DNA of 64,000 nt from Actinomadura sp. NBRC 104412 (GCF_030269515.1 NZ_BSTM01000005.1:226357-290356), one strand, 5' to 3'; positions 609 through 8,795 are shown, numbered from the stretch's first letter. Numbers and translations are program-made. Notes: generated from the sequence alone by a model not told the origin.

Positions 609-1469
609 ATGACGCTGACCGTCCTTTTCTGCGTCGATCCGCTCAGCCCCCGGCGCGTTGACCCCCATTTCGCCCGCGAGGCCGCCGCCGTACGGGATCA
701 TTACGGTGAGATCGCCCTGATCGACCACGAGGCGCTGCGGCGCGGTGACGCCGAGGCGGCGGTACGGGCCGTGCCCAGGGACCTCGGGCCCGTCTGGTAC
801 CGCGGCTGGATGCTCACCAGCGCGGAGTACGCGGCGATGGCCGCTCTCCTGAAGAAGCGGGGCACGCTGCTGATGACGCATCCGGACGACTATCGGCGGG
901 CGCACGAGCTGCCCGGCTGGCATGACACGTTCGCGGGTCTGACACCGCAGAGCGTGTGGCGGCCTCTGTCCCCCGGCCAGGACCCGGGTGACTTAGGGGA
1001 ACTGGTGCGTCCCCTGCGCGGCGGCCCCGGGGTGGTCAAGGACTACGTGAAGTCCCGCAAGCACGAGTGGGACGAGGCGTGCTTCGTCCCGGACGTGAAG
1101 AACCTGGCGTTACTGCGGGGCGTCGTGGCCAAGATGCTCGCGTTGCAGGACGAGTTCCTGGCCGGTGGCGTGGTCGTACGGGAGTACGAGCCGTACGACG
1201 GGGAGGGCGAGGCGCGCGTGTGGTGGGTGGACGGGGAGCCCGCTCTCATAGGTCCGCACCCCGACAGCCCTGAGGTCGAGCCCGAGCCCCGTGTGGACGC
1301 CGTGGCCCCCGCGGTGCGCACGCTCGGGTGCCGGTTCATCACCACCGACCTGGCGCGCAGGGACGACGGCGAGTGGCGCGTGGTCGAGGTGGGTGACGGC
1401 CAGGTCAGCGATCTGCCGTCCACGGTCGATCCCATGGACCTGTACGCGCATCTTCCGGTGCCCGATTGA
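609..1469 (+). CDS. ATP-grasp domain protein, R2K-clade type
   Basis: A 286-residue protein that looks like a short ATP-grasp ligase of the R2K clade. I base this on overall pattern: an N-terminal alpha/beta part, then GVVKDYVKSRKHEW near residue 140 (basic, probably ATP-binding), VREYEPYDG near 189, and a C-terminal VVEVGDGQVSDLP near 260 of the kind that binds metal-ATP. R2K proteins are predicted peptide or amino-acid ligases; the substrate here is unknown. The ATG at 609 follows a GGAGGG ribosome site. It lies divergently from recA and about 240 bp ahead of a three-gene cassette holding a second, unrelated ATP-grasp ligase. Family fairly sure, function unknown. Confidence 0.7.
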   Translation: MTLTVLFCVDPLSPRRVDPHFAREAAAVRDHYGEIALIDHEALRRGDAEAAVRAVPRDLGPVWYRGWMLTSAEYAAMAALLKKRGTLLMTHPDDYRRAHELPGWHDTFAGLTPQSVWRPLSPGQDPGDLGELVRPLRGGPGVVKDYVKSRKHEWDEACFVPDVKNLALLRGVVAKMLALQDEFLAGGVVVREYEPYDGEGEARVWWVDGEPALIGPHPDSPEVEPEPRVDAVAPAVRTLGCRFITTDLARRDDGEWRVVEVGDGQVSDLPSTVDPMDLYAHLPVPD

Positions 1470-1706
1470 GCCACCGGACGTCGATCACCATCATCGGGAC
1501 GGGACTGCGCCCACGAAGCCCTTTCGGCATGGGATGATCCAGAAGTTCGTCATTGGCGGGAACGAGGTCTTGGTCCCTTCCGTCCGAGGATCGACCACCT
1601 CTAAGCTATGGCTTCGCAACCGACCGTTCTCATTCCGTGAGCGCGCGGCGCCGCCCAGGGGCGATCGGCTGCCAGTGGCCTCGTTGCACAAAAGGACGTG
1701 TTCCCC

Positions 1707-2084
1707 TTGCCCCCTCAGCAGGACAAGCGCCGGCTCAGCTCGCGGGCTGTGAAGATCGGGATGGTCAGCGCCCTGTCGCTGACGGTGGCCGCATGCGGTT
1801 CCAAGACCACCACGGCGTGGTGCGTCGACCGGTACGCGCCGGCGGTAGGCAGGACCGCGGGCGGTTACAAGGTCGTCTCCGATGTGTTCTGCGACTCGCG
1901 AGACATCGAACGAGGCACCGTGTCCTATGGACGGTACTTCTGGTACTACGGCGGCAAGCGCGACTCCGACGGCTACGTCAGCGGTGGCAGCCGCTTCGGG
2001 CCGAGCAAGGGCAAGATCAAGTCGTCCAGCGGGAGGACGCTGAGCCGCGGCGGGTTCGGCGGCAGCGGCAGAAGCGGGAGCTGA
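1707..2084 (+). CDS. Lipoprotein with Gly/Ser-rich RGGFG tail, YgiB/YjfM-like
   Basis: A short secreted lipoprotein of about 125 residues. The basic N-terminus is followed by a hydrophobic segment ending in the lipobox SLTVAAC, so the cysteine should be lipidated and the protein anchored outside the membrane. The body is rich in Tyr, Gly and Ser (DVFCDSRD, YGRYFWYYGGKRDSDGY) and it ends SRGGFGGSGRSGS. From memory, E. coli YgiB (DUF1190) also has an RGGFG-containing C-terminal part and is encoded next to a glutathionylspermidine-synthase-like gene, as here. The TTG start at 1707 is chosen for its AAAGGA ribosome site; GTG at 1698 is an in-frame alternative. The stop is three bases before the ligase start. 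Function unknown; it may be the ligase's substrate. Confidence 0.72.
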   Translation: MPPQQDKRRLSSRAVKIGMVSALSLTVAACGSKTTTAWCVDRYAPAVGRTAGGYKVVSDVFCDSRDIERGTVSYGRYFWYYGGKRDSDGYVSGGSRFGPSKGKIKSSSGRTLSRGGFGGSGRSGS

Positions 2085-2087
2085 GCC

Positions 2088-3257
2088 GTGCGGCGAGAAC
2101 GTTCCGCACCGCGTCCTGACTGGCCGCAAAAGGTGGAGATGCACGGCCTGGCCTTCCACCGCGACGCGCACCCCGAGCACCTGACCCGCCCCTATTGGGA
2201 CGAGTCGGTGCACTACGTGTTCGAGATGGACGAGGTGCTGGCGCTCGAAGAGGTCGTCGAAGAACTGCACCGCATGTGCCTGGACGTCGTCGAGCATGTC
2301 GTGAGCACCGGCCGTTACCACGTGCTGGGCATTCCCGACTGGGTGGCGCCCCTCATCGAGGAGTCGTGGCGGCGCCGCGACCCGCATCTGTACGGGCGTT
2401 TCGACCTGCGCTACGACGGCACGGGCCCGGCCAAGCTGCTGGAGTACAACGCCGACACCCCCACCGCCCTGGTGGAGAGCGCGATCGTCCAGTGGTACTG
2501 GCTGCAGGAGGTCTTTCCCGGAGACGACCAGTGGAACTCCATCCATGAGCGCCTGGTCGACCGGTGGAAGGAGATCGCCGCGCAGCGCCTCGACAAAGGC
2601 CCGGCCCATTTCGCGTGGACGCACGGCGACGAGACCGGCGAAGAGGTCATGACGATCGCGTACATGCAGGAGACCGCCGAGGAGGCGGGCCTGCCCGGGA
2701 TCGCCATCGCCATGGAGGACATCGGCTGGGATTCGCGGCGCGGGCGTTTCGTGGACCTCAAGGAAGACGAGATCCGCACGCTGTGCAAGCTCTACCCCTG
2801 GGAATGGATCGTCAACGAGCCGTTCGGCAAGAACATCCCGGGCACTCCCACCCGGTGGATCGAGCCGATCTGGAAGATGATCCTGTCCAACAAGGCGCTG
2901 CTGGTCCTGCTGTGGGAGCTGTTTCCGGGGCACCCCAATCTGCTTCCCACCTATCTCAACACGCCGTCCGACCTGACCTCGTACGTGCAGAAGCCGTTGC
3001 TGGGACGGGAGGGCGCGAGCATGCGCATCGTCACCCCTGACGGCGACGAGCAGCGCACCGAGGGCGGTTATGGGAGCGAGGGCTTCGTCTTCCAGGAGTT
3101 CTGCCCGCTGCCCGACTTCGATGGTGAACACCCGGTGCTGGGGGCCTGGGTGGTCCACGACGAGTCCGCGGGGCTCGGCATCCGTGAGACCTCGGGTCTC
3201 ATCACCGATGACACGTCGTCATTCGTCCCGCACCGCATTCCCCTGTCAACCCCCTAG
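2088..3257 (+). CDS. Glutathionylspermidine synthase-like ATP-grasp ligase (YgiC/YjfC family)
   Basis: 389 residues matching the stand-alone GspS-like ATP-grasp domain (as in YgiC and YjfC) without the amidase half of true Gsp. These enzymes form amide bonds using ATP; the substrate of the stand-alone family is not established. Visible landmarks are YWDESVHYVFEMDEV near residue 40, LLEYNADTPTALVES near 117, WEWIVNEPFG in the middle, and the glycine-rich GREGASMRIV near 305 typical of ATP-grasp nucleotide loops. The GTG start lies three bases after the lipoprotein stop, implying co-transcription and coupling. A DUF350 membrane protein follows. Lipoprotein, GspS-like ligase and DUF350 recur together in other bacteria. 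Family assignment confident; reaction inferred. Confidence 0.88.
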   Translation: MRRERSAPRPDWPQKVEMHGLAFHRDAHPEHLTRPYWDESVHYVFEMDEVLALEEVVEELHRMCLDVVEHVVSTGRYHVLGIPDWVAPLIEESWRRRDPHLYGRFDLRYDGTGPAKLLEYNADTPTALVESAIVQWYWLQEVFPGDDQWNSIHERLVDRWKEIAAQRLDKGPAHFAWTHGDETGEEVMTIAYMQETAEEAGLPGIAIAMEDIGWDSRRGRFVDLKEDEIRTLCKLYPWEWIVNEPFGKNIPGTPTRWIEPIWKMILSNKALLVLLWELFPGHPNLLPTYLNTPSDLTSYVQKPLLGREGASMRIVTPDGDEQRTEGGYGSEGFVFQEFCPLPDFDGEHPVLGAWVVHDESAGLGIRETSGLITDDTSSFVPHRIPLSTP

Positions 3258-3314
3258 TGACGCGTCCGGCGAACCCCTGACCCCTAGAGGACGCGCCTCC
3301 CGCTAAGGAGATCA

Positions 3315-3761
3315 ATGAACGACGACAGCCTCGCCCAGATCCTGCTGGACGGGACGGGCGCGATCCTCGCCTACGCCTTGGTCGGCCTGGTGCTGTTCGT
3401 GGTCGGCTTCTACATGACCGACCTGGCCACCCCGGGACGGCTGATCACGGTCATCCGTACCCACCGCAACCCGAACGCGACGCTGCTGGCGTGCGCGTCC
3501 ACCGTCGGGGTGGGCCTGATCGTGGCCGTCTCGATCTTCGCTTCGGGCGGCGATCTGATGGAGGGCCTGACCAGGACGCTGGTGTTCGGCCTCGTGGGCA
3601 TCGTGGCGATGACCATCGCCACCCTGGTCTTCGACAAGGTGGTGGGTATCAGCATCAGGCACCTGGCCGACGACTCCGAGGACAAGCTGGAGCCCGCCGC
3701 GATCCTGCTGGGCGTCGCCAACCTGATGATCGGCTTCGTCACGGCCGTCGCGGTCTACTGA
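3315..3761 (+). CDS. DUF350 family membrane protein
   Basis: A 148-residue protein with four predicted membrane helices at roughly residues 15-35, 53-75, 88-110 and 126-148, and the family-like stretches FYMTDLATPG and NATLLACASTVGVGL. DUF350 proteins are inner-membrane proteins of unknown function, repeatedly encoded beside GspS-like ligases and lipoproteins. An AAGGAG ribosome site precedes the ATG with good spacing. The 57-base gap after the ligase gene contains no obvious terminator, so it should belong to the same operon. It may provide the membrane site where the ligase and lipoprotein meet, but that is inference. Confidence 0.88.
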   Translation: MNDDSLAQILLDGTGAILAYALVGLVLFVVGFYMTDLATPGRLITVIRTHRNPNATLLACASTVGVGLIVAVSIFASGGDLMEGLTRTLVFGLVGIVAMTIATLVFDKVVGISIRHLADDSEDKLEPAAILLGVANLMIGFVTAVAVY

Positions 3762-3868: not shown

Positions 3869-4063
3869 TCAGTGGAGGCGCTGGGGGACGTCGAAGGTGT
3901 CGACGACCGCCTTCCAGACCTTCTTGGCCGGCTCGCCGTCCGCGAGGGCCTGCTCGATGGTGCGGCCGCCCAGTTCGGCCAGGACGTGGTCCTTGGCGAC
4001 GCTCTCGGCGTAGCCCTCCCCGAACTGCTCGTTCATCCGTTCCCAGAACTCTGTCAACCGCAC
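3869..4063 (-). CDS. DUF3046 family protein
   Basis: A 64-residue protein beginning MRLTEFWERMNEQFGEGYAE and containing LGGRTIEQALADGEPAKKVW, the hallmark pattern of DUF3046. This small family is restricted to actinobacteria and usually lies close to recA/recX, as it does here. Function is unknown. It is divergent from lhr, with about 110 bp between the two starts that must hold both promoters. Confidence 0.9.
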   Translation of the reverse strand: MRLTEFWERMNEQFGEGYAESVAKDHVLAELGGRTIEQALADGEPAKKVWKAVVDTFDVPQRLH

Positions 4064-4172
4064 CCGTCCACGCTATCCGAGGCCACCGCGACCCGGTCCG
4101 GAAGCGCTCGATCACGATGTGACGAGCGCCACCCCGGCGCGTTTTGTCGGTGGCGGGATGCAGGATGGGGAC

Positions 4173-7100
4173 ATGAGCGGTGACGTGCTCGAACGCTTCT
4201 CCCCCGCCACCCGGGAGTGGTTCAGGGGGGCGTTCGCGGCGCCCACCCCGGCGCAGGCGGGAGCGTGGGAGTCGATCTCCAGCGGCGACAACACCCTGGT
4301 CGTCGCGCCGACCGGCTCCGGCAAGACGCTGGCCGCGTTCCTGTGGTCGCTCGACCGCCTCACCGCCTCGCAGCAGGACCCTGAGGCGGAGCCCGCCGAC
4401 GAGGCCGATCCCAGGCGGCGCTGCCGCGTCCTGTACGTCTCGCCGCTCAAGGCCCTGGCCGTGGACGTCGAGCGCAACCTGCGGGCCCCGCTCACCGGCA
4501 TCCGCCAGGCCGCCCGCAGGCTCGGCCTCGCCGAGCCGGACGTGCGGGTCGGGATCCGCTCCGGCGACACGCCCGCCGACGAGCGGCGGCGGCTGGCCAC
4601 CCGGCCGCCGGACATCCTGATCACCACCCCCGAGTCGCTGTTCCTGATCCTCACCTCGCAGGCCCGCGAGTCGCTGCGCGGTGTGCGGACGGTGATCGTG
4701 GACGAGGTGCACGCGGTGGCGGGCACCAAGCGCGGCGCGCACCTGGCGCTCAGCCTGGAACGGCTGGACGCGCTGCTGGAGCGTCCCGCGCAGCGGATCG
4801 GCCTGTCGGCGACGGTGCGCCCGGTGGACGAGATCGCCGCGTTCCTCGGCGGCACCCGTCCCGCCACGGTGGTGCAGCCGCCGTCGGACAAGGTGTTCGA
4901 CCTCGACATCGTCGTACCCGTCGAGGATCTCGGGGAGATCGCCCGGTACACCGACGACTCCGGGGCGGCCGACCCCCGGCAGCGCAGCATCTGGCCGCAC
5001 GTCGAGGACCGCCTGCTCGACCTGATCGGGCGGCACCGGTCCACGCTGGTCTTCGCCAATTCCCGCCGCCTGGCCGAACGGCTGTGCGGGCGGCTCAACG
5101 AGCTCGCGTACGAACGCACCACGGGAGCGCTGCCCGAGAACCATGCCCCTGCGGAGACGATGGCGCAGGCCGGCGCGTCCAGGGGCGCTCCGGTCGAGAT
5201 AGCGCGTGCCCATCACGGCTCGGTCTCCAAGGAAGAGCGCGCCGGCATCGAGGACGCCCTCAAGCAGGGCCGCCTCCCCGCGGTGGTGGCCACGTCCAGC
5301 CTGGAGCTGGGCATCGACATGGGCGCGGTGGACCTGGTCGTCCAGGTGGAGTCGCCGCCGTCGGTCGCCAACGGCCTGCAGCGGGTGGGGCGCGCGGGCC
5401 ATCAGGTGGGCGCGGTGTCCAAGGGCGTCATCTTCCCCAAGTACCGGGGCGACCTCATCCAGACCGCGGTGGTGGCGGAGCGGATGCGCGGCGGCCTGAT
5501 CGAGGAGACGCGCTACCCCCGCAACCCGCTCGACGTCCTCGCCCAGCAGATCGTCGCGATGGTGGCGATGGACGAGTGGACGGTCGACGAGCTGGAGTCC
5601 GTGGTCAAGCGGGCGGCCCCTTACGCCACGCTCCCGCGTTCGGCGCTGGAGGCGACCCTGGACATGCTCGCGGGCCGCTACCCCAGCGACGAGTTCGGGG
5701 AGTTGCGTCCCCGCCTCGTGTGGGACCGCGTGACCGGCGTGCTGCGCGATCGTCCCGGGGCGCAACGGCTCGCGGTCACCAGTGGCGGCACCATCCCCGA
5801 CCGTGGCCTGTTCGGGGTGTTCCTCGTCGGTGAGAAGGCGTCGCGGGTGGGCGAGCTGGACGAGGAGATGGTGTACGAGTCGCGCGTCGGTGACGTCTTC
5901 GTCCTGGGGGCCAGCTCTTGGCGCATCGAGGACATCACCCCTGACCGCGTGCTGGTGTCCCCCGCGCCGGGGCAGCCGGGCAAGCTGCCGTTCTGGCATG
6001 GCGACACCCTGGGACGCCCGGCCGAGCTGGGGCGCGCGCTGGGCGCGTTCACCCGCGAGCTGGCCGCGTTGCCCGAGGGCGCCGCGCGTGAACGGGTCGC
6101 GTCCTTCGGCCTGGACGAGTGGGCCTCCGCCAACCTCGTCTCCTACATCGGCGAGCAGCGCGAGGCGACGGGCCATGTCCCGGACGACCGCACGCTCGTG
6201 GTCGAACGGTTCCGCGACGAGCTGGGCGACTGGCGGGTGGTCGTCCACTCGCCCCTGGGCGCGCGCCTGCACGCCCCCTGGGCGCTGGCCATCGCGGGGC
6301 GCCTGCGCGAACGGTACGGGGTGGACGCCCAGGCGATGCACGCCGACGACGGCATCGTCATCCGCCTCCCCGACATGGACGAGCCGCCCAATCTGGAGCT
6401 GGCCGTCTTCGATCCCGACGACATCGAACGCATCGTCGTCGACGAGCTGGGCGGCTCGGCGCTGTTCGCGGCCCGGTTCCGCGAGTGCGCGGCGCGTTCC
6501 CTGCTGCTCCCGCGGCGCCGTCCCGACAAGCGCATGCCCCTGTGGCAGCAGCGCCAGCGGGCGGCGCAACTGCTGGCGGTGGCGAGCAAGTACCCGTCGT
6601 TCCCGATCGTCCTGGAGACGATGCGCGAATGCCTCCAGGACGTGTTCGACGTCCCCGGCCTGGTCCAGTTGATGCGCGACCTGTCCGGACGCAAGGTGCG
6701 CATGGTCGAGGTGGAGACGAACGAGCCGTCGCCCTATGCGCGCTCCCTGCTGTTCCACTACGTGGGCGCGTTCATGTACGAGGGCGACTCGCCCTTGGCC
6801 GAGCGCCGCGCCCAGGCCCTCGCCCTTGACTCCGCGCTGCTCGCCGAGCTGCTGGGCCAGGCCGACCTGAGGGAGCTCCTCGATCCCGAGGTGGTGGCCG
6901 ACACCGAACGCGAGCTGCAACGCCTCGCCGAAGACCGCCGCGCCCACGGCCTTGAGGGCGTGGCCGATCTGCTGCGCACGCTGGGGCCGCTCACCACGGC
7001 CGAGGTGGTCGAACGCACGGCCGTACCCACTCCGGAAGGGGTCGAGCCGGACCTGACCGCAGGAGAACGGGCCGTCGGGCTGTGGCTGGTGGACCTTGAG

Positions 7101-8795
7101 GCGACACGGCGGGCCGTCCGCGTACGGATCGCGGGCAAGGAGCATTGGGCGGCGATCGAGGACGCTGGGCGCCTGCGTGACGCGCTGGGCGCGCCCCTTC
7201 CCGTGGGGATCCCCGAGGCGTTCCTTGAGCCTGTCGACGATCCGCTGGGCGACCTCGTCTCGCGGTACGCCCGTACGCACGGCCCGTTCCGCGTGGGGGA
7301 CGTGGCCGCGCGCTTCGGCCTGGGCCCCGCCGTGGTGGCCGAGACCCTGCGGCGCCTCGCGGGCGCGGGACGCGTCGTGGAAGGGGAGTTCCTTCCTGTC
7401 GAAGCCGTCTCCGGCCCGCTGACCAGCGAATGGTGCGACACCGGCGTGCTGCGTACACTGCGGCGCCGTTCGCTGGCACGGCTGCGCGCGGAGGTGGAGC
7501 CCGCCCCACCCGAAGCGCTCGGCCGGTTCCTGCCCGCATGGCACGGCATCACGGGCGGTTCGCGGCTGCGCGGCATCGACGCCCTCGTCCAGGCCATCGA
7601 GCAGTTGCAAGGCTGCGCGGTGCCCGCGTCGGCTCTGGAGTCGCTGGTGCTGCCGTCCCGCGTCCCCGGGTACTCGCCCGCCATGCTGGACGAGCTCACG
7701 TCCGCCGGAGAGGTCGTCTGGGCCGGCCAGGGCGGTCTGCCGGGAGGGGACGGCTGGGTCTCCCTCTACCTGGCCGAGTCGGCGCACCTGCTCATGCCGG
7801 AGCCCGCCGAGATCACCCTGACCCCCGTGCACCACGCTGTGCTCGACGCCCTGTCGGACGGCGGCGCGCTGTTCTTCCGCACGCTCTCCGACCGCGTCGC
7901 CTCCGGCGAGACCGGACCCGTCGACGACCAGGACCTGGTCACCGCCGTGTGGGACCTGGTCTGGGCCGGCCATCTCACCAACGACACCCTGGCCCCCCTG
8001 CGGTCCGCGCTCGGCTCGGGCCGCCCGTCCCACCGGTCGAGGACGACCCGCCGTGGCCGTCCCGTCCTCCCGTCCCGCACGGGGCCGCCCACGGTGGCGG
8101 GACGCTGGTGGCTGCTTCCCGAGCGGGAGAGCCGCGCGACGCTCCGTTCGCACGCGCTGGCGGAGTCGCTGCTCGACCGCTACGGCATCGTCATCCGGGG
8201 CGCGGTGGCCGCCGAACGCACGCCCGGCGGCTTCGCGGCCGTCTATCCCGTCCTGCGCGCCTTCGAGGAGAGCGGCCGTTGCAGGCGCGGCTACTTCGTC
8301 GAGGGCCTGGGCGCCGCCCAGTTCGCCATGCCCGGCGCCGTCGATCGGCTGCGCGCCCTGCGCCCGGCGCCCCCGCCCGCCGACCCGTGGGAGACGGCCC
8401 CGGGGGGAGGGCACGCCGAACGCCGCGCCCTCGTCCTGGCCGCCGCCGACCCGGCCAACCCGTACGGCGCCGCACTGCCCTGGCCCACCCGGGACGACGA
8501 GGTCGCCAGCGGCCACAAACCCGGCCGCAAGGCCGGCGCCCTGGTGGTACTGGTCGAAGGCGAACTCGTCCTCTACGTGGAACGCGGCGGCCGCACTCTG
8601 CTGACCTGGCACGACGACCACGACTCCCTCCAACCCGCCGTGGACGCCCTCGCCCTGGCCGTCCGCGAGGGCGCCCTGGGCCGCCTCACCGTCGAACGCG
8701 CCGACGGCGAAGCCATCGTCAACTCCCCCTTGGCCGCCGCCCTGGAAGCCGCCGGCTTCCACCCCACCCCCCGCGGCCTACGCCTACGCGCCTGA
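4173..8795 (+). CDS. lhr: Lhr-family ATP-dependent helicase
   Basis: A large superfamily 2 helicase of about 1540 residues, the usual length of actinobacterial Lhr (a 3'-5' DNA/RNA-DNA helicase tied to DNA repair in mycobacteria). Motif I APTGSGKT is near residue 45, motif II DEVH near 176, motif III LSAT near 210, then LVFANSRRLAERL, HHGSVSKEER, ATSSLELGIDMG and the QRVGRAGH motif VI near 405, followed by the winged-helix and long Lhr C-terminal parts. Start ATG 4173 is chosen because homologs begin close to MSGDVLERFSPATREWF and an AGGATGGGG ribosome site precedes it; an upstream in-frame ATG at 4119 would overlap the promoter of DUF3046. Decayed copies of its last codons lie downstream. 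Confidence 0.95.
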   Translation: MSGDVLERFSPATREWFRGAFAAPTPAQAGAWESISSGDNTLVVAPTGSGKTLAAFLWSLDRLTASQQDPEAEPADEADPRRRCRVLYVSPLKALAVDVERNLRAPLTGIRQAARRLGLAEPDVRVGIRSGDTPADERRRLATRPPDILITTPESLFLILTSQARESLRGVRTVIVDEVHAVAGTKRGAHLALSLERLDALLERPAQRIGLSATVRPVDEIAAFLGGTRPATVVQPPSDKVFDLDIVVPVEDLGEIARYTDDSGAADPRQRSIWPHVEDRLLDLIGRHRSTLVFANSRRLAERLCGRLNELAYERTTGALPENHAPAETMAQAGASRGAPVEIARAHHGSVSKEERAGIEDALKQGRLPAVVATSSLELGIDMGAVDLVVQVESPPSVANGLQRVGRAGHQVGAVSKGVIFPKYRGDLIQTAVVAERMRGGLIEETRYPRNPLDVLAQQIVAMVAMDEWTVDELESVVKRAAPYATLPRSALEATLDMLAGRYPSDEFGELRPRLVWDRVTGVLRDRPGAQRLAVTSGGTIPDRGLFGVFLVGEKASRVGELDEEMVYESRVGDVFVLGASSWRIEDITPDRVLVSPAPGQPGKLPFWHGDTLGRPAELGRALGAFTRELAALPEGAARERVASFGLDEWASANLVSYIGEQREATGHVPDDRTLVVERFRDELGDWRVVVHSPLGARLHAPWALAIAGRLRERYGVDAQAMHADDGIVIRLPDMDEPPNLELAVFDPDDIERIVVDELGGSALFAARFRECAARSLLLPRRRPDKRMPLWQQRQRAAQLLAVASKYPSFPIVLETMRECLQDVFDVPGLVQLMRDLSGRKVRMVEVETNEPSPYARSLLFHYVGAFMYEGDSPLAERRAQALALDSALLAELLGQADLRELLDPEVVADTERELQRLAEDRRAHGLEGVADLLRTLGPLTTAEVVERTAVPTPEGVEPDLTAGERAVGLWLVDLEATRRAVRVRIAGKEHWAAIEDAGRLRDALGAPLPVGIPEAFLEPVDDPLGDLVSRYARTHGPFRVGDVAARFGLGPAVVAETLRRLAGAGRVVEGEFLPVEAVSGPLTSEWCDTGVLRTLRRRSLARLRAEVEPAPPEALGRFLPAWHGITGGSRLRGIDALVQAIEQLQGCAVPASALESLVLPSRVPGYSPAMLDELTSAGEVVWAGQGGLPGGDGWVSLYLAESAHLLMPEPAEITLTPVHHAVLDALSDGGALFFRTLSDRVASGETGPVDDQDLVTAVWDLVWAGHLTNDTLAPLRSALGSGRPSHRSRTTRRGRPVLPSRTGPPTVAGRWWLLPERESRATLRSHALAESLLDRYGIVIRGAVAAERTPGGFAAVYPVLRAFEESGRCRRGYFVEGLGAAQFAMPGAVDRLRALRPAPPPADPWETAPGGGHAERRALVLAAADPANPYGAALPWPTRDDEVASGHKPGRKAGALVVLVEGELVLYVERGGRTLLTWHDDHDSLQPAVDALALAVREGALGRLTVERADGEAIVNSPLAAALEAAGFHPTPRGLRLRA

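Follow-up and report, generated by a model that had tools for sequence, protein, structure and literature searches.

An ATP-grasp ligase paired with RGGFG-tailed anchored proteins: a candidate system for polyamine capping of surface-protein tails

The RGGFG locus of Actinomadura

We analysed a 64,000-nucleotide stretch of the 7.85 Mb genome of Actinomadura sp. NBRC 104412 (GCF_030269515.1, NZ_BSTM01000005.1:226357-290356; hereafter the window), whose closest named relatives belong to Actinomadura and Spirillospora, near the start of which a gene for a small lipoprotein with a C-terminal RGGFG tail lies directly before the gene for a GspS-like ATP-grasp ligase. The original prediction, made from the sequence alone, had described a four-gene island here (R2K ligase, lipoprotein, GspS-like ligase and DUF350 protein); all four genes are present on the forward strand at their predicted positions, and all but the lipoprotein have Pfam matches above the cut-off. 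The lipoprotein gene (1707-2084) has a TTG start and encodes a lipobox (LTVAAC, Cys30), a two-cysteine exported domain and the C-terminus SRGGFGGSGRSGS, in which RGGFG (residues 114-118, codons 2046-2060) is followed by a final stretch, GSGRSGS (2061-2081), with no acidic residues. The ligase gene (2088-3257; GTG start) begins 3 nucleotides after the tail-gene stop and is separated by 57 nucleotides from the gene for a YjfL-like DUF350 membrane protein (3315-3761; PF03994, E-value 5.3e-20, 72.3 bits against a cut-off of 26). The last three genes of the island are thus as close together as had been remarked, and the DUF350 protein is a probable member of the operon. The best reading of 1707-3761 is an actinobacterial form of the YgiBC/YjfLMC module of Escherichia coli.

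The ligase (GSP_synth, PF03738, E-value 5.3e-154) is of the YgiC/YjfC type and is a predicted peptide-polyamine ligase. Among solved structures, the closest relative is YgiC of E. coli (7uk8; E-value 1e-94 over residues 3-382), followed by YjfC (7uk6), with true glutathionylspermidine synthetase (Gss) well below both. The ATP-grasp active-site residues are kept in the alignment (GRFD, E.NADTPT, SNKAL, KP..GREG and GIRE). The protein consists of 389 amino acids in one domain, with neither an amidase domain nor an export signal; Gss has 619. Gss forms an amide of spermidine with the C-terminal glycine of glutathione; to our knowledge, no natural substrate has been assigned to YgiC or YjfC. The two E. 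coli enzymes are named peptide--spermidine ligase by NCBI, and passages in two papers that cite Pederick 2023 refer to them as peptide-spermidine ligases or peptidylpolyamine synthetases (PMC10948618, PMC12568646).

Membership of the lipoprotein in DUF1190 (PF06693) was considered and rejected: its match is below threshold (E-value 0.2, 12.4 bits against 22, over the C-terminal part) and an hhalign comparison with a DUF1190 set aligned the signal region only. Its context is DUF1190-like in that it is anchored, is encoded beside a YgiC-type ligase and carries a C-terminal RGGFG tail. AlphaFold, run on 17 sequences, returned a predicted local distance difference test (pLDDT) score of 64 for the tail protein and values below 50 for the last 8 residues, which is consistent with a disordered tail; a Foldseek search with this predicted structure gave zero matches. 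The gene is the sole credible one in its own genome with an in-frame RGGFG tail running to a TGA stop (the pattern being limited to Phe, TGA and at most 30 nucleotides), and the idea of many tailed substrates per genome was dropped; some relatives have two or three. Actinomadura barringtoniae has a tandem pair of tail genes between the R2K gene and the ligase gene (locus L022, 6769-7407).

The first gene of the island encodes an R2K_3 ATP-grasp protein (609-1469; PF14243, E-value 2.7e-44, 151.8 bits against a cut-off of 26.3) and lies 237 nucleotides upstream of the tail gene. The island is flanked on one side by recA, the first gene at the window start (reverse strand), and on the other by genes for a DUF3046 protein (3869-4063, reverse strand) and an Lhr-like helicase (4119-8795).

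Pairing of ligase and tail in Actinobacteria, other bacteria and phages

The pairing of the tail lipoprotein with the GspS-like ligase, which the original prediction had noticed in this one genome, recurred throughout the actinobacterial samples. A tail gene adjoins the ligase in all 80 of the named actinobacterial ligase loci that we sampled (77 caught by a strict pattern and three by inspection, namely RGGAG, RGGIG and one tail inside an over-long open reading frame). It ends at or near the ligase start, and the tail itself is RGG[FL]G or a one-residue variant with a Gly/Ser end (one Thr); DUF350 is found near the ligase in 70 of these loci. As a background, [RK][GA]G[FL]G occurs in the last 45 residues of 11 of the 6924 other open reading frames in the same loci, and just one of those 11, the second tail gene of A. 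barringtoniae, has a G[GS] end. All 18 genomes of the phylum above the family cut-off have an adjacent tail, some of them as variants (RAGFG, REGFG, RGGFF, QGGFG). Across 101 genomes (68 genera) of the window's family, searched with a tail-protein profile at an E-value of 0.001, ligase and tail protein occur in the same 50 genomes and tail matches in none of the 51 ligase-free genomes (Fisher p 5e-30, a value that overstates independence because the genomes are related and the genes lie in one operon). Seven tail proteins encoded away from any ligase in the fetched stretch retain RGGFG and the Gly/Ser end, and such unlinked paralogues were found only in ligase-positive genomes of the sample; linkage alone is therefore insufficient to explain the tail. 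The tail is missing from three remote homologues of the domain, and in a genome with three ligases both extra copies inspected have a tail gene of their own.

The original prediction had asked whether conservation of the partner protein is highest at RGGFG, and it is. Among 17 Streptosporangiales proteins, where column identity averages 51%, it ties with WYYGG as the top five-residue window (0.99) and GGFG is invariant; among 12 DUF1190 and phage proteins it stands alone at the top (0.88). Over 132 tails the motif positions are occupied by R in 124, G in 128, G in 132, F or L in 126 and G in 130, and the motif is followed by 7-31 residues (median 9), TVSRGGYGRSSSARGHWGG being an example of a tail peptide of this type. 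The final residue is Ser in 70 tails and Gly in 60, and the final two residues are GS in 67 and GG in 57 (124 together). Asp and Glu account for 1.6% of residues after the motif, compared with 8.4% in the last 150 residues. Neither occurs there in 122 of the 132 tails, so that the alpha-carboxylate is usually the sole carboxylate in this stretch. The composition of the end is a largely independent observation, since the terminal residues lie outside the motif-based selection.

The anchor is a lipobox in the window's clade and in Proteobacteria, and one hydrophobic helix after a basic stretch in Mycobacteriales and Pseudonocardiales, with the two-cysteine domain and the tail beyond it; both types predict a tail outside the membrane. 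The anchor is exchangeable and the bodies differ, acidic residues and conserved cysteines being present in the exported domains, and the tail is constant.

Outside Actinobacteria, the statement of the original prediction that E. coli YgiB, encoded beside YgiC, has an RGGFG segment near its C-terminus proved correct (..TRGGFG..SRSMGG), and YjfM, beside YjfC, ends in SRGGYGRSSSARGHWGG (RGGYG..HWGG). Tails also stand beside YgiC-type ligases in Rhizobium (RQGFG..FGG), Vibrio (RGGWG..WGS), Roseomonas (RAGFG..SGG) and Deinococcus (RGGLT..SGG), as well as in Arthrobacter and Paraburkholderia; that of Sphingomonas (RGGFG..IHA) is the one clear exception at the end. The tail protein of an Arthrobacter plasmid (locus L121, 2368-2874), which ends in VTRGGFGGGAKGGGGHGG, is annotated as a tRNA-dihydrouridine synthase and is apparently misannotated. 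As controls, no tail protein was found among the neighbours of E. coli gss, and several positions conserved in the ligases have been lost from an Azospirillum homologue (30% identical) that has no tail protein beside it.

The same combination occurs in phages. A YgiC-type ligase and a tail are both carried by Achromobacter phage Motura, Sinorhizobium phage Phosso, Ochrobactrum phage OC, Aeromonas phages AS4, 44RR and LAh_8, Acinetobacter phage ZZ1 and DSS3_VP1. The last of these was discarded as a case of a ligase without a tail gene when the tail gene was found at the opposite end of the linear record. In Motura (locus L111, 71965-81065) a predicted homospermidine synthase (so annotated, and with a saccharopine-dehydrogenase fold by Pfam), an RGGFG-tailed lipoprotein and a YgiC-type ligase follow in a row, with DUF350 one gene on. 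A YgiC scan of viral contigs yielded four loci only. GspS-like enzymes at about 25% identity, from phages PhiW-14 and phiPMW, Bacillus phage PJN02 and Brevibacillus, neighbour a lipoprotein whose Ser/Gly tail ends in GG or GS and in which RGGFG is absent. The enterobacterial phages Merlin, CR3 and POP15 encode a DUF1190 lipoprotein with an intact RGGFG..FGG tail, and the Merlin record already annotates a YgiB-like phage lipoprotein.

Proposed action of the ligase on the tail

The near-constant neighbourhood of an anchored protein with a nearly fixed tail suggests that this tail is the natural target of the ligase. Conservation, pairing, anchor exchange and the shape of the tail end are apparent at the level of sequence; from them we infer the tail as substrate, a C-terminal bond, a polyamine as the amine and modification before export. 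We estimate a probability of roughly 60% that the ligase attaches a polyamine to the C-terminus of the tail before export. With the help of ATP, the cytoplasmic ATP-grasp ligase would activate the C-terminal carboxylate of its RGGFG-tailed partner (in the window, the proposed site is the alpha-carboxylate of Ser125 of the lipoprotein, its proposed substrate) and would join it to spermidine or a relative. The ligase would recognise its partner by RGG[FL]G, and the Gly/Ser end, being flexible, would reach the active site. Such an enzyme would need a partner in which the recognition motif is fixed, the end flexible and just one carboxylate free, which argues for C-terminal capping, and the lack of an export signal in the ligase means that modification would have to precede export. 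The tail protein would then be exported and held in the membrane by its lipid or by one transmembrane helix, so that the polyamine-capped tail would stand on the outer face, and DUF350 may help in the membrane.

Several points weigh against this proposal. The earlier suggestion that the ligase modifies the lipoprotein tail fits the conservation of that tail and the way in which it accompanies the ligase in different phyla, in phages and in the 101 genomes, but the modification itself is so far a proposal drawn from sequence comparison. For an enzyme in the cytoplasm to act on an exported tail, their timing must fit. In half of the tails the last residue is Ser instead of Gly, and the Sphingomonas tail ends in HA. 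The co-occurrence of ligase and tail is partly that of one operon inherited. Finally, no ligase was found in the records of Merlin, CR3 and POP15; host YgiC could serve their tail proteins, which are possibly competitors or clients of that enzyme.

It is unlikely, in our judgement, that the ligase modifies the tail C-terminus with an amine other than a polyamine (an amino acid, an amino sugar or another). Polyamine specificity rests on the E. coli homologues and one phage operon, and no recurrent polyamine gene was recognised near the ligase in the actinobacterial loci without R2K by a neighbour clustering that is noisy and was judged by eye. Against this, passages in the literature report that YgiC and YjfC use spermidine (PMC10948618, PMC12568646) and that linkage to polyamine genes is repeated (PMC11237479), and in Motura a predicted homospermidine synthase is encoded together with ligase and tail.

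We hold it equally unlikely that the tail is no more than a docking sequence or a product receptor, which recruits the enzyme or binds its product, and that the ligase acts on different peptides or at a different carboxylate in its partner. RGGFG is more fixed than the residues that follow it, as for a docking motif, and the exported domains contain acidic residues and conserved cysteines; however, the GS or GG end is itself constrained and poor in acidic residues, and a receptor that has been exported would be out of reach of an enzyme in the cytoplasm.

More improbable still is a tail function unrelated to the ligase, such as surface adhesion or the binding of metal or lipid, with the pairing being a matter of operon inheritance. 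The two genes do travel together, DUF1190 is called a metal-chelating lipoprotein in passages of PMC11237479, and Merlin, CR3 and POP15 have the tail protein with the ligase undetected, but the retention of the tail in unlinked paralogues confined to ligase-positive genomes of the sample, the existence of tail-free homologues of the domain, and the constancy of the tail where anchors and domains vary all speak against it.

The idea that the R2K ATP-grasp protein extends the tail system did not hold up. The R2K gene is adjacent in 11 of the 80 loci, all from Actinomadura, Spirillospora, Actinoallomurus or Actinocorallia and all with recA and DUF3046 too; in the Actinomadura clade it is divergent from recA whether the tail operon is there or not, and in a same-genus genome that has neither ligase nor tail it is still next to recA. 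More distant R2K genes elsewhere in the family lie near neither ligase nor recA. Counted by genome in the family sample, R2K is present in 19 of 50 ligase-positive and 11 of 51 ligase-negative genomes (p = 0.08). We conclude that R2K and the ligase operon share a recA-adjacent site in one clade; R2K belongs to the recA side and is dispensable for the tail system. Of what the original prediction had staked itself on, conservation of the tail was found and co-occurrence of R2K with GspS-like genes was not, outside this clade. A single pathway in which both ligases serve the tail is thus very improbable, for all their adjacency throughout the sampled Actinomadura/Actinoallomurus/Actinocorallia group, given that the other 69 loci have no R2K and that, where the ligase is missing, R2K is still found beside recA.

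Related systems and significance

The E. coli systems YgiB-YgiC and YjfL-YjfM-YjfC resemble the window in their ligase, homologous over its full length, in the adjacent anchored RGG[FY]G protein, ending in GG, and in the DUF350 protein of the yjf operon. The window differs in that its tail protein falls below the DUF1190 threshold, with a body that aligns with DUF1190 over the signal region only, in the gene order (tail, ligase, DUF350) and in the absence of PspA and DUF2491. With Gss and trypanothione synthetase the window ligase has in common the GspS fold and, as established for those enzymes and proposed here, an amide between a C-terminal carboxylate and spermidine; it differs from Gss in lacking the amidase domain, in having NADTPT in place of NADSAS, and in its tail gene, which is absent beside gss. 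The third PspA-linked polyamine operon group of Ravi et al. 2024 (PMC11237479) likewise combines a GspS-like ATP-grasp protein, DUF350 and a lipoprotein; the passages concerned call DUF1190 metal-chelating, and mention neither the RGGFG tail nor the tail as a substrate.

The second DUF350 gene of the Actinomadura genome shares an operon with genes for a polyamine aminopropyltransferase (PRK03612, E-value 8e-211), DUF4178 and DUF4247 (the last at 6831-7355, reverse strand, of locus L135, G000:C18:108000-119000). DUF4247 proteins sampled end in Lys in 15 of 15 cases (FRGGGPGxGK or GGTK), with DUF350 within the fetched stretch in 14 of 15. This operon has in common with the window a DUF350 protein, an anchored protein with a Gly-rich tail and a polyamine enzyme, and differs in the terminal Lys and in the enzyme, an aminopropyltransferase. 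Aminopropyltransferases act on amines and the ligase on carboxylates, which suggests that the tails end accordingly; judging by these sequences, aminopropylation of the DUF4247 lysine is a possible counterpart of the ligase system.

According to the passages cited above, both the activity of the ligase and the DUF350/DUF1190 operon have been published already. The tail as a substrate appears to be new so far as the literature was accessible, and earlier proposals are possible; a full-text search for RGGFG returned nothing evidently on these proteins by title and abstract. The neighbourhood may already have been treated by Iyer et al. 2009. As far as we have checked, the constancy of the tail on bodies and anchors that are unrelated, the match between its occurrence and that of the ligase, the composition of its end and the phage cassettes are also new.

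The comparative evidence gives YgiC and YjfC one concrete candidate substrate, the C-terminus of YgiB and YjfM. That ATP-grasp ligases cap RGGFG-tailed anchored proteins with polyamines before export as a widespread modification in bacteria and phages is a more tentative proposition, to which we would give a little less than even odds. Should it prove true, the capping of surface-protein tails with polyamines would be a new kind of C-terminal protein modification, common to Actinobacteria, Proteobacteria, Deinococcus and several phage groups, and would provide the first functional frame for DUF1190, DUF350 and possibly DUF4247. A sister system, in which an aminopropyltransferase modified the terminal Lys of DUF4247, would then make DUF350 a general partner of polyamine-tailed surface proteins.

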